This document shows, piece after piece, positions 57,332 through 62,877 of a stretch of 64,000 nucleotides of DNA (the stretch's first letter is position 1; the number at the start of each line of letters is the position of its first letter). The position numbers and the translations under genes were made by a program. The stretch lies in assembly GCF_000143085.1 (NCBI RefSeq), contig NC_014315.1:248001-312000 (forward strand), written 5' to 3'. The stretch comes from Nitrosococcus watsonii C-113. Lineage in GTDB: Bacteria; Pseudomonadota; Gammaproteobacteria; Nitrosococcales; Nitrosococcaceae. The notes below the pieces were generated by a model, which worked only from the letters and a program-made list of their open reading frames with translations, did not search any database and had not been told where the DNA came from.

Positions 57332-57889
57332 TTACCTGGATGAGAGGGGGGTGAGTAGCTCTTGTTGCCGCTGCTGCAGCTCAAGTAATGCATCGTAACC
57401 TTTAATCCGCAGTTGATGGTCTTGGACCGCCGTTTCTATCACTGTGGCTGGCTGCATAGTACCCATTAGAGGCAGGGTGATCTCAGGTACTTTCACCTTT
57501 AACCGCTCCCACTGGCCTAGGTTGCGGGTGAGGGGTTCGATGGGTTTGCTAGGGATAAGGTGGATGACGAGATCAAGAAGGTGCTGCACGGCAATAGCTT
57601 GCTCGCCGTAGATAGCACGAATATTGATAGCCCCCAAACCAGGTACAGCTAGAAAATCCTGCAATAGATGGGGACAGCTACCCACTAATCGGGCCGCTGA
57701 CGTGCGTTGAAAGAGAGGGGCATCGTCTGCTATTAAACGATGCCCCCGCCTGATTAATTCTAGAGCTAGGCTGCTTTTACCAACGCTGTTTTCTCCCGTT
57801 AATAGAACGCCACAGTCAAATATTATGAGCAGTACGCCGTGGCTTGTCATCTTATTTTCATTAGGGTTGCTCACGCCCTGCAATCTCAC
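57332..57889 (-). CDS. hprK: Truncated HPr kinase/phosphorylase homologue
   Basis: A 185-residue homologue of the C-terminal half of HPr kinase, which phosphorylates HPr on Ser46. Walker A is TGENSVGKSS and the catalytic ADD motif is in HRLIADDAP. The second signature is changed: PGLGAINIRAIYG without the usual Glu-x-Arg before GLG, and the GRN motif near the end reads MQP. The N-terminal domain of full-length enzymes (about 310 residues) is absent, as in alphaproteobacterial short forms. A GTG at 57889 overlaps the ptsN stop as GTGA and is the preferred start; ATG at 57850 is an alternative. Activity is therefore uncertain. Confidence 0.8.
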   Translation of the reverse strand: MRLQGVSNPNENKMTSHGVLLIIFDCGVLLTGENSVGKSSLALELIRRGHRLIADDAPLFQRTSAARLVGSCPHLLQDFLAVPGLGAINIRAIYGEQAIAVQHLLDLVIHLIPSKPIEPLTRNLGQWERLKVKVPEITLPLMGTMQPATVIETAVQDHQLRIKGYDALLELQQRQQELLTPLSSR

Positions 57890-58371
57890 TTGGTAGCAAC
57901 ATTCGAGGGAGTGGAGTTCTGCTCCCATTCTTTCAGAGTTTCCAGGAGAACATTTGGGTCTTTAGCTTTCCGCAGGTAGGCACATAGCTCCGGATCACGA
58001 AACATTTCTGCTAACCGGGCGAGCAATTGCACGTGGATTTGCGTTGATTCTTCAGGTACCAGCAGAGCGCAGAATATATCCACCGGCTGCTGATCCATGG
58101 CATCGAAATCAATTCCCTGGTCTAGGCAGATTAAAGCCGCTAACGTGTGTTGATTGCCTTTCATGCGGGCATGGGGAATGGCGATTCCATGTCCTAAACC
58201 TGTGCTGCCAAGTCGTTCCCTAGCAAGCAGGCAATCAAAGATATCCGTTGAATTCAGGTTATCCGCGCCTCGGGCGAGCAGTTCACTAAGCTGTTCTAGA
58301 ACCCGCTTTTTGCTGCTTGCAAGGGTGCCAGCAGCAACTTGATCGGGACCAAGGAGCTTGGTAATTTGCAT
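57886..58371 (-). CDS. ptsN: PTS-Ntr EIIA protein PtsN
   Basis: PtsN is the phosphate-accepting EIIA of the regulatory PTS, which affects potassium uptake and other processes rather than sugar transport. The 161-residue protein has the active His67 in GHGIAIPHARM. It is in the usual position after hpf (13-base gap). Its stop codon TGA overlaps a GTG start of the hprK homologue, so both are probably translated together. Confidence 0.95.
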   Translation of the reverse strand: MQITKLLGPDQVAAGTLASSKKRVLEQLSELLARGADNLNSTDIFDCLLARERLGSTGLGHGIAIPHARMKGNQHTLAALICLDQGIDFDAMDQQPVDIFCALLVPEESTQIHVQLLARLAEMFRDPELCAYLRKAKDPNVLLETLKEWEQNSTPSNVATK

Positions 58372-60266: not shown

Positions 60267-60992
60267 TTAAAGATAAAAATTGTACCCCAGATACACTTCC
60301 TTTACTCGCTCGTTATCAAGGATTTCCTGGGGCTTACCTTTAGCAATTACTTCACCTTCATTAACAATGTAAGCATATTGGCAAATTCCCAAGGTTTCCC
60401 GGACGTTGTGATCGGTAATCAAAACACCAATCTCTCGTTCTGTTAAGTGTCTAATAATACCCTGAATATCGAGCACTGAAATAGGATCAACACCAGCAAA
60501 AGGTTCGTCTAGCAGTATAAACTGTGGTTCCACCGCCAGCGCACGAGCAATTTCAACACGCCGCCGCTCTCCGCCTGAGAGGCTCATGCCCAAGGTATTT
60601 TTTATATGGGTGATATTGAGTTCGCGCAATAATTGGTCCACAAGGTGTTTGCGAGCCGATTTTGTAAGATCCCGTCGAGTTTCCGCGATGGCCATAATAT
60701 TGTTGGCTACCGTCAACTTGCGGAAAACTGAGGCTTCTTGGGGAAGATAGCTGATCCCTAGTCGAGCACGGCGGTGAATGGGATAAGAGGTAATATCATG
60801 ATGGTCTAGAGAAATAAGCCCCCTATCGGCTGGTATTAAGCCAACCAGCATGTAGAAACACGTCGTTTTACCCGCGCCGTTAGGGCCTAGCAGGCCTACG
60901 ATCTGACTGCTTGAAATCTCTAACGAAACATCTTTGACTACCCAGCGGGATTGGTAGCACTTAGCAAGGCGATGGGCTGACAGCTTGCTCAT
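60267..60992 (-). CDS. lptB: LPS export ATPase LptB
   Basis: LptB is the ATPase of the LptB2FG complex that pulls lipopolysaccharide out of the inner membrane. The 241-residue protein has Walker [10 protein letters not shown], the ABC signature [17 protein letters not shown] and Walker [14 protein letters not shown]. Its start overlaps the lptA stop by four bases (ATGA), so the two are coupled. LptF and LptG are not in the window. Confidence 0.97.
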
Positions 60993-61807
60993 GGGGCGAT
61001 GCGGTTATCTTCACGCTCGACGGGCAATCGAATAAAATCTATATGGCTCCAGCCTTCGACCGATTCGCCCTTGATAAGGATAGCAATGTGTAACCATTTA
61101 TCTTGCCGCCCTAAGATTGCCACCTGAGTTCGAGGCGGGAGAAGCGCTACTTTAGGGTACTCGGTACCGGGACCAGTACGCAGCTTGAGCCAAGTCGTGG
61201 TTCTCCCATCCGTGAATGGCTGGCGGTCATTCTTTTCATTTTCCGAGAGTGGGGTAGGGGTTGTATTTTCAGGAGTGGATTCGCTGGTTGGTGGGCCGTC
61301 ATCGGCCGGATGTATCGTCACATGGATGCGCCCCACTCCCGTTTCGGAGCCTTCACCCCTCACAATATCACGTTCCGTATTATAGACGATGCGATCACCC
61401 GTGAACTCGTTTGTACCCTGCCAAATATGGGCTTTCTGCAGTAGATGGATGGTTGTAGTATCGGCATGGTATTCCATTCGCAGCGCCTTGGCCCGGATAT
61501 CCTCCTTACTGTTGTCGGGCCGTTGCCGATACCAGGCGGGCTGCCCCTCGGCAACGGCCTTTTCAAGTTTTTTATCTAGCGTGTAGTAGATAGTAAGCGT
61601 ATCAGAGTCAATTCGCAGGGTTCCTTGGGTGAGGTGGACATTGCCACTATAAACAGCAACTTGCTCGCGGTCATCAAGTTCCCCTCGATCAGCTTCAATA
61701 TGAATGGGTTGCTCAGAATCGCTAGATAGGGCCAGGGCGGTTTCAATACTTAGGCTACCGATGATAAACCAAGCAGCCGTTAATTTAAGGCTTAGGCGCC
61801 AGATCAT
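60989..61807 (-). CDS. lptA: LPS bridge protein LptA with fused C-terminal SH3b domain
   Basis: LptA forms the periplasmic bridge that carries lipopolysaccharide from LptC to LptD. This protein is 272 residues, against about 185 in E. coli. After a signal peptide (cleavage near ALALSS) the OstA/LptA jellyroll spans about 30-165, followed by a Pro/Thr/Glu linker (166-200). Residues about 201-262 look like a bacterial SH3 domain: [20 protein letters not shown], then [17 protein letters not shown] and [11 protein letters not shown]. Such domains often bind peptidoglycan, which would anchor the bridge to the wall. The fusion is in one frame; its function is inferred. Confidence 0.9.
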
Positions 61808-62420
61808 AGTTCCCTCTTACCTGCGATAATAATTCTATACGGCCCTCTTTTAGATAGACTCGAGCACCTATGGAGTGGGTTTTGCCGAAGCTATTGAGCA
61901 GGGTGACCGGTTGTTGGGTTTCGGCGTACTTTGCTTGTGGTTTAACCCGTACATTTCGGGTTAATATTTTCATATTAATGGTTTTTGAATCAGCTCCTAA
62001 TTGGTGAATAATAACTTCTCCCAGAAGATCAATTTCATCACCTTGGCTATTGGTTAACCCTTGTTCGGCCACGACTTTCCAACGGGCTTTAGCCTGTTGA
62101 TAAAAAACGGCATCTGGTGCCGTAATCTCTATAGTGTCGTTATCTAGGTAGTGGGCCATATGAGTACCTGCTAGCCGGTAAAGAGGTAGGCCTTGTGGGT
62201 CCATTAGCGTCGAGGTGAATTCCTCCATGAAGTAATCGGTGGTGCGTCTATTCAGATCGCCCCCAGGAGCATATGCGGATTCTTCCTGTAATAATTCCCA
62301 GGCTGTCACAGTAGCGATAAGCGTTAGTATCACCATTCCCCAAAAGCGGGTTAGTTTAATAATATTTCTCCAGCTGGGCTTTAAGCGTTCCTTGAGCCTC
62401 CATAATAAGCTCGCAGACAT
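61785..62420 (-). CDS. lptC: LPS export protein LptC
   Basis: LptC is an inner-membrane protein that hands lipopolysaccharide to LptA. A single N-terminal membrane segment (RFWGMVILTLIATVTAWELL) is followed by a periplasmic beta-jellyroll. The C-terminal part overlaps the lptA start by 23 bases. The start is uncertain: ATG at 62420 gives 211 residues with positive charges before the membrane helix, and overlaps kdsC; ATG at 62336 gives 183 residues but no basic lead. I prefer 62420. Confidence 0.85.
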   Translation of the reverse strand: MSASLLWRLKERLKPSWRNIIKLTRFWGMVILTLIATVTAWELLQEESAYAPGGDLNRRTTDYFMEEFTSTLMDPQGLPLYRLAGTHMAHYLDNDTIEITAPDAVFYQQAKARWKVVAEQGLTNSQGDEIDLLGEVIIHQLGADSKTINMKILTRNVRVKPQAKYAETQQPVTLLNSFGKTHSIGARVYLKEGRIELLSQVRGNYDLAPKP

Positions 62421-62877
62421 CACGCGCAGCACCTTTGCCACCGAGGTGGGGAGTAATCCAGTGAGCGTGTTGCTTGACGAGCGGATGAGCATCTTGGACC
62501 GCGATGGCAAGCCCCACTCGCCGCATAATAGCCAAATCTACGACATCATCGCCCACATAGGCAGTCTCATGGGGTTGAAGGTTAAGCTGTTCAAGCAGAT
62601 GTTCGTAGGCGGGGAGCTTAATCTTTTGTCCTTGGTACACCAAAGTAATTCCAAGGTTTTCCATGCGGTATTCGACTACACGGGAAGTTCGGCCCGTAAT
62701 GATTCCAATTTTAACGCCTGTATGTTGTAGCATTTTCATGCCATGGCCATCACGAGAATGAAAAACTTTGTACTCCTGACCATTATCGTCAAGATAAAGG
62801 CCGCCATCGGTGAGTACGCCATCCACATCGAAAAGAGCAAGTTTTATAGCCGAGGCTTTGGCAAATACCTCACGCAT
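62356..62877 (-). CDS. kdsC: KDO-8-phosphate phosphatase KdsC
   Basis: KdsC removes the phosphate from KDO 8-phosphate. The 173-residue HAD-family protein has the nucleophile motif LALFDVDGVLTDGGLYL, the second motif GIITGRTS and the DVVDLAIMRRVG loop. The C-terminal HPLVKQHAHWITPHLGGKGA is typical of KdsC. It follows kdsD by 20 bp and leads into lptC. Confidence 0.97.
   Translation of the reverse strand: MREVFAKASAIKLALFDVDGVLTDGGLYLDDNGQEYKVFHSRDGHGMKMLQHTGVKIGIITGRTSRVVEYRMENLGITLVYQGQKIKLPAYEHLLEQLNLQPHETAYVGDDVVDLAIMRRVGLAIAVQDAHPLVKQHAHWITPHLGGKGAARDVCELIMEAQGTLKAQLEKYY

Follow-up and report, generated by a model that had tools for sequence, protein, structure and literature searches.

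LptA spans the periplasm as part of the Lpt bridge, along which lipopolysaccharide (LPS) is carried outward. In the known LptA, the next subunit of the bridge stacks near the end of the jellyroll. The Discussion of a 2025 mBio article states that the mechanism coordinating LPS export with wall growth “remains to be determined” and likely operates through the control of Lpt bridge formation, and it calls for factors promoting bridges where peptidoglycan grows (PMC11898776). Bacterial SH3 domains, a kind of module that often binds the cell wall, have been described on other envelope proteins. The SH3 domain of Csd5 of Helicobacter pylori binds peptidoglycan, according to the available section of PMC9507126, which cites Blair 2018. 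In Serratia marcescens, the SH3b domain of TagV has been proposed as an anchor of the T6SS at the wall, and the effect of a Trp mutant was partial, the residue contributing to activity without being essential (PMC7614798, available portion). CpAcp carries ten SH3b domains, and for its SH3b6, docking rather than experiment points to N481, R483 and Y527, among other residues, with N481 and R483 touching a peptidoglycan peptide in the docked complex (PMC8470621, available portion).

The stretch of DNA analysed here (the window) comprises 64,000 nucleotides of Nitrosococcus watsonii C-113 (GCF_000143085.1, contig NC_014315.1, positions 248,001-312,000), the genome of which has 3,373,286 bases in three contigs. 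The species is placed in Chromatiales by NCBI, and its order in GTDB is Nitrosococcales. An open reading frame of 272 amino acids with an ATG start and a TGA stop occupies window positions 60989-61807 and encodes LptA fused to a C-terminal SH3b domain. Both the fusion and the interval had been pointed out in an earlier note made from the letters of the DNA, and both are borne out, with the qualification that the gene lies on the minus strand; the plus-strand reading of the interval is interrupted by several stops. The product scores 154.9 bits against the NCBIfam equivalog TIGR03002 (cut-off 71.7). Its residues 36-146 match Pfam LptD_N (PF03968; E 6.6e-31, 107.3 bits vs 20.4), and residues 207-255 match SH3_3 (PF08239; E 5e-7, 30.2 bits, cut-off 27).

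The domains follow one another in one frame, all on the minus strand. A probable signal peptide (residues 1-26, 61730-61807) was recognised by eye and in the AF2 model as a hydrophobic helix at residues 7-17 together with ETALA. It is followed by the LptA/OstA jellyroll (residues 27-167, 61307-61729), assigned from the LptD_N match, pLDDT and Foldseek, and by a linker of 32 amino acids (residues 168-199, 61211-61306) whose middle is predicted to be disordered, described by pLDDT, its length range and dN/dS. The SH3b domain (residues 200-260, 61028-61210) was assigned from the SH3_3 match, the predicted fold and the alignment. The C-terminal tail (residues 261-272, 60992-61027) has lower pLDDT and is poorly conserved, with 14-71% identity over 7-12 comparable sites. 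Residues 168-272 thus account for the extra segment of about 100 residues described in the earlier note, as 32 residues of linker, 61 of SH3b and 12 of tail. The 15-residue motif quoted there begins at residue 204, and GWSHIDFI at residue 252.

The gene stands in an lpt operon on the minus strand. Upstream lies lptC (61785-62510; Pfam LptC, E 1.1e-45; TIGR04409), the listed frame of which overlaps lptA by 23 bases; the real lptC start is probably inside this frame. The next gene upstream of lptC is kdsC, encoding KDO-8-phosphate phosphatase (62356-62877; NF007019, 218.3 bits vs 208). Downstream, lptB (60267-60992; TIGR04406, 378.9 bits) starts within the lptA stop in a 4-base overlap, ATGA. 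The frames beyond lptB are presumably rpoN, hpf and ptsN. A frame of 198 amino acids at window positions 57332-57928 of the minus strand, which overlaps the presumed ptsN frame by 43 bases, was also noted; of HPr kinase, it has just the C-terminal domain (PF07475, 171 bits). LptC and LptB matches were present in all 39 loci of the order that were read. The genome encodes a second LptD_N protein, and since this one lies in a frame of 742 amino acids, the size of LptD, the protein of the window is considered the sole LptA of the genome. Judging by its family and operon, it probably works as LptA.

The distribution of the fusion was followed with a profile built from 12 fusion proteins (A1). A match was found in 59 of 63 genomes of the order, and in 57 of these 59, single-contig genomes included, it runs through the SH3b domain. 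This rules out an oddity of a single species. The fusion is present in all seven genera and is thus conserved in the order, a point that the earlier note had proposed to check in related gammaproteobacteria. Among the 39 loci of the order, the SH3b profile matches the lptA frame in 38. Outside the order, it matched none of 40 lptA loci in genomes of other orders of the same class (39 genomes, G266 being represented twice) and none of 11 lptA loci from named records without an order label; these 51 loci correspond to 50 distinct frames. Their proteins extend 1-29 residues past the match to the profile, with a median of 3 in one set and of 4 in the other. The suspicion that the architecture is not usual for LptA was therefore well founded in the sample examined. 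In the class sample (369 genomes, 311 matching), only four members of the order reach the SH3b domain among the matches listed, and in the phylum sample (299 genomes, 171 matching), which shares genomes with the class sample, only the window genome does so among the matches listed. Unlisted fusions of the same type are unlikely, because an SH3b domain would raise the score. A standalone SH3b gene was not found near lptA in the other LptA loci with the LptA-SH3b profile (E <= 1, frames of at least 60 amino acids), a search that a distant SH3b could escape.

The Pfam model gives a similar picture. Of the 51 sequences in the alignment used below (A2), 31 have an SH3_3 match with E <= 0.01; its fusion rows also number 31, the matching members being counted and not named. 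In a check by name, all three fusions matched and none of six other proteins did. Two exceptions are found among the 59 genomes. In G479, a frame of 101 amino acids matches positions 1-98 of the model, and outside the 59, G033, G045, G478 and G058 have no LptA match. None of these five genomes yields LptB at E <= 1e-60, and the missing full LptA is therefore read as an assembly gap, which is our inference. The other exception, G009 (L076, G009:C6:154600-156400), is a genome of 1.1 Mb rated 100% complete, in which the LptA frame stops just after the jellyroll and Pfam finds no SH3_3 match in the protein. It is a probable case of natural SH3b loss. The SH3b domain is evidently not always needed, since a complete genome has LptA without it.

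Structures were predicted with AlphaFold, and all models discussed here are predictions. In the full-length model, made on the 51-row alignment, block means of pLDDT are 93-97 for residues 31-150, about 80 for residues 151-170 and 92-97 for residues 201-260. When the SH3b part is modelled alone (residues 195-272), the block means in its core are 90-96. Foldseek placed the full model close to LptH (4uu4, E 4.8e-13) and LptA (2r1a), with the SH3b structure 2krs at rank 35; with the SH3b part alone, 2krs was at the top with 1.3e-3, and none was below 1e-3. In a second structure comparison of the SH3b part, with 998 chains, the top rows were SH3b domains of bacterial type, most of them from wall enzymes: YrvJ (Z 11.3, an integrative model), NlpC2 (11.0), DPP VI (10.3), Psm endolysin (10.2, rmsd 1.5 over 63 residues), 2krs (10.1) and LytB (9.4), where rows within 1 of each other are regarded as tied. 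YrvJ is counted here as a wall enzyme by our own assumption. TagH, which is not a hydrolase, follows with Z 8.8. Fungal muramidases come next with their wall-binding domains (8.1-8.4), and then the SH3 domains of eukaryotic signalling proteins (8.0 and below). The structure prediction suggested in the earlier note thus returned an SH3 fold with block means of 90-97 and bacterial SH3b domains as the nearest PDB folds. A common fold shows no function, and SH3_3 is a broad fold class, which counts against assigning a wall-binding role.

Alignment A2 takes in 31 of the 38 fusions that were read; L007 and L008, which have several SH3b copies, and L015, L018, L025, L029 and L082 were left out. In the 31 fusions, the SH3b domain is exactly 61 residues long in 30 and 62 in one, and the linker measures 26-55 residues (median 36). 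Residues L207, R210, P213, W238, G252 and W253 are identical in all 31. The RT-loop LxxRTGPG and GWV..Y motifs, which we regard as typical of SH3_3 domains, are present in the alignment. The conserved residues could be purely structural. For five Nitrosococcus pairs, dN/dS by the Nei-Gojobori method was 0.05-0.09 in the jellyroll, 0.06-0.17 in the SH3b domain and 0.15-0.39 in the linker; only four species supply these pairs, which are non-independent, and dS exceeds 1 in three of the five in both domains. At the level of codon comparison, the SH3b domain is under purifying selection. Distances in the LptA part and in the SH3b part are correlated, with r = 0.885 for 31 sequences and 0.79 for the 27 of family f2 (presumably Methylophagaceae), and neither value was reached in 2000 label permutations. 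The mean distance is 0.49 for the SH3b and 0.37 for the LptA part, making the SH3b the faster part. One ancestral fusion inherited vertically would give such a correlation; occasional exchange would also be compatible with it.

Two genomes have multiplied the SH3b domain. The LptA of G004 (L007, G004:C1:1765610-1766986) contains three SH3b copies with 65-74% mutual identity, and that of G005 (L008, G005:C1:1653733-1654992) contains two copies that are 38% identical and that Pfam counts as one stretch. These identities suggest that the expansions were separate. The Trp at position 238 and the GW at 252-253 are kept in all five copies. The RTGPG motif is altered in all five, and R210 is missing in four of them, namely in all three G004 copies and in copy 2 of G005. 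The altered RT-loop motif may mean a changed ligand or weaker sites offset by copy number; a changed ligand, if true, would make it less likely that the domain always binds peptidoglycan.

The reading we put first, with about an even chance of being right, is that the protein is a working and sole LptA whose SH3b domain holds the bridge subunit against peptidoglycan. The C-terminal SH3b, attached through a flexible tether some 32 residues long, would grip peptidoglycan, with stem peptides as its probable target. The tether would leave the edges of the jellyroll available for stacking with LptC, LptD or a further LptA. Every bridge would then contain at least one wall-binding module, which may position LPS export at the wall, stabilise it there or set its timing. 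Binding to peptidoglycan is suggested here by the fold and by precedent, and an effect on bridge placement would be a further consequence. The earlier note had spoken of a covalently linked SH3b; the expression suits the two domains as one polypeptide and does not suit the wall, with which the contact would be non-covalent. By motif register, the CpAcp residues N481, R483 and Y527 probably correspond to K208, R210 and F258 of the window protein. At these putative pocket positions, the aligned fusions have N208 in 28 of 31, R210 in 31 of 31 and Y258 in 24 of 31, and the window protein carries Lys208 in place of Asn and Phe258 in place of Tyr. The retention of the fusion in the order, the low dN/dS of the SH3b, its constant length next to linkers of varying length and the copy gain in G004 and G005 also favour this reading. 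Against it stand Lys208 and Phe258 of the window protein, the loss of R210 and the altered RTGPG motif in the multiplied copies, the lack of the domain in G009 and its faster evolution compared with the jellyroll.

A broader version is possible, and we would not count on it: the Lpt bridge of the whole order may be anchored to the wall through peptidoglycan-binding SH3b domains, and bridges may arise or last only at sites where suitable stem peptides are available in the sacculus, which would couple LPS export to wall growth. The extra copies in G004 and G005, which are probably acid-tolerant genera, would then be an adaptation of the anchor.

The main rival is that the SH3b domain binds a protein, such as an enzyme of the Rod system or of the divisome or some other protein of the envelope, and so recruits the bridge to the wall-synthesis machinery. 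SH3 folds generally bind peptides, and the RT-loop changes in G004 and G005 would fit a shifting partner. For the A. baumannii protein ElsS, of the SH3_and_anchor family, two-hybrid assays gave a signal with PBP2 and also for self-interaction (PMC7481262, available portion). Against a protein ligand speak the closest PDB folds, which are mostly SH3b domains of wall enzymes, and the distance from the ElsS-type family: the window LptA scores 12.8 bits with TIGR04211 (SH3_and_anchor), below the cut-off of 65, and of six ElsS-type loci of the order, the LptA-SH3b profile gives 12-14 bits for five and no match for the sixth. Recruitment through a protein partner seems to us rather unlikely.

The family TIGR04211, to which we assume YgiM belongs together with ElsS, is over its cut-off in 53 of 63 genomes of the order and in 160 of 276 genomes of the class; the ten genomes of the order where it is not include the window genome, G002, G004 and G005. 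The idea that the SH3b domain moved from, or replaced, an ElsS/YgiM-type protein is unsupported: most genomes of the order have both, and a simple exchange with this family finds no backing because 53 of 63 keep that protein too. The only other SH3_3 match in the window genome is a frame of 316 amino acids (L074, G000:C1:405139-405354, minus strand) with a C-terminal SH3_3 domain and N-terminal near-repeats (SPAMRAIRALEDSP...). Its SH3_3 domain is 22% identical to the window SH3b and 30-31% identical to two SH3b copies of f2, values that do not support L074 as the source of the LptA SH3b.

The SH3b domain might also act inside the Lpt machine, docking on LptA, LptC, LptD or LPS and controlling stacking or the stability of LptA. 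It is attached past the end of the jellyroll, near the stacking site of the next subunit, and lptC and lptB adjoin lptA, all of which would suit such a role. The model points the other way: pLDDT is below 50 at residues 174-195 of the linker and pTM is 0.57, so no packing of the two domains is predicted. The twofold variation of linker length also suits reach better than a fixed dock. A role within the machine is distinctly unlikely on these grounds.

It is less probable still that the domain is a passenger, an ancestral addition now merely tolerated or helping folding. Its absence from G009, the drift of motifs in G004 and G005 and the stronger constraint on the jellyroll would agree with this. 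However, purifying selection acts on the SH3b, six of its residues are identical in every aligned fusion, it is kept nearly throughout the order and in every genus, and G004 and G005 gained copies rather than decayed. That a frameshift or an assembly error fused two genes, one of the two refutations foreseen in the earlier note, has found no support and has next to no chance of being true: of the 59 genomes of the order with an LptA match, 57 encode both domains in a single frame, and lptC and lptB matches lie alongside in every locus of the order that was read.

A description of an LptA-SH3 fusion was not found in the literature searched, the coverage of which leaves out preprints and most subscription journals, and the available portions of PMC7481262, PMC8341153, PMC8159010 and PMC10119676 do not describe one. 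LptA and SH3b wall modules were each known already; what is new is their combination, kept through an order. LptA fused to a domain of wall-binding type offers a ready hypothesis for tying Lpt bridges to peptidoglycan growth, and the fusion may link the building of the outer membrane to the wall. The SH3b is a simple handle, a separable domain of 61 residues with a conserved Trp and Arg, and a natural part for asking whether wall tethering shifts the site where LPS appears.

Compared with known systems, the SH3b part resembles in its predicted fold the SH3_3 domains of cell-wall enzymes such as Psm (4krt), DPP VI (3npf) and LytB (4q2w). Unlike these proteins, LptA-SH3b has no catalytic domain, and its SH3b sits on a lipid-transport bridge protein. 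The multiplication of SH3b in G004 and G005 is reminiscent of CpAcp with its ten domains (PMC8470621, available portion). Csd5 likewise belongs to the envelope of a Gram-negative bacterium and carries its SH3 domain at the C-terminus, a likeness drawn from its description in the accessible text of PMC9507126 and not from its sequence; it differs in being a transmembrane cell-shape scaffold outside the Lpt system. TagV, as far as the available text of PMC7614798 describes it, also brings an SH3b domain to a trans-envelope machine, but it is a separate lipoprotein of another machine. The ElsS/YgiM type (TIGR04211) is likewise a gammaproteobacterial SH3 protein, one tied to wall synthesis (PMC7481262, available portion), and differs as a separate anchored protein. 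The protein agrees with LptA/LptH (YhbN; TIGR03002, PF03968) in the jellyroll, the single copy, the lptC-lptA-lptB order and the equivalog score, and departs from them in the linker and the SH3b domain that follow the jellyroll.
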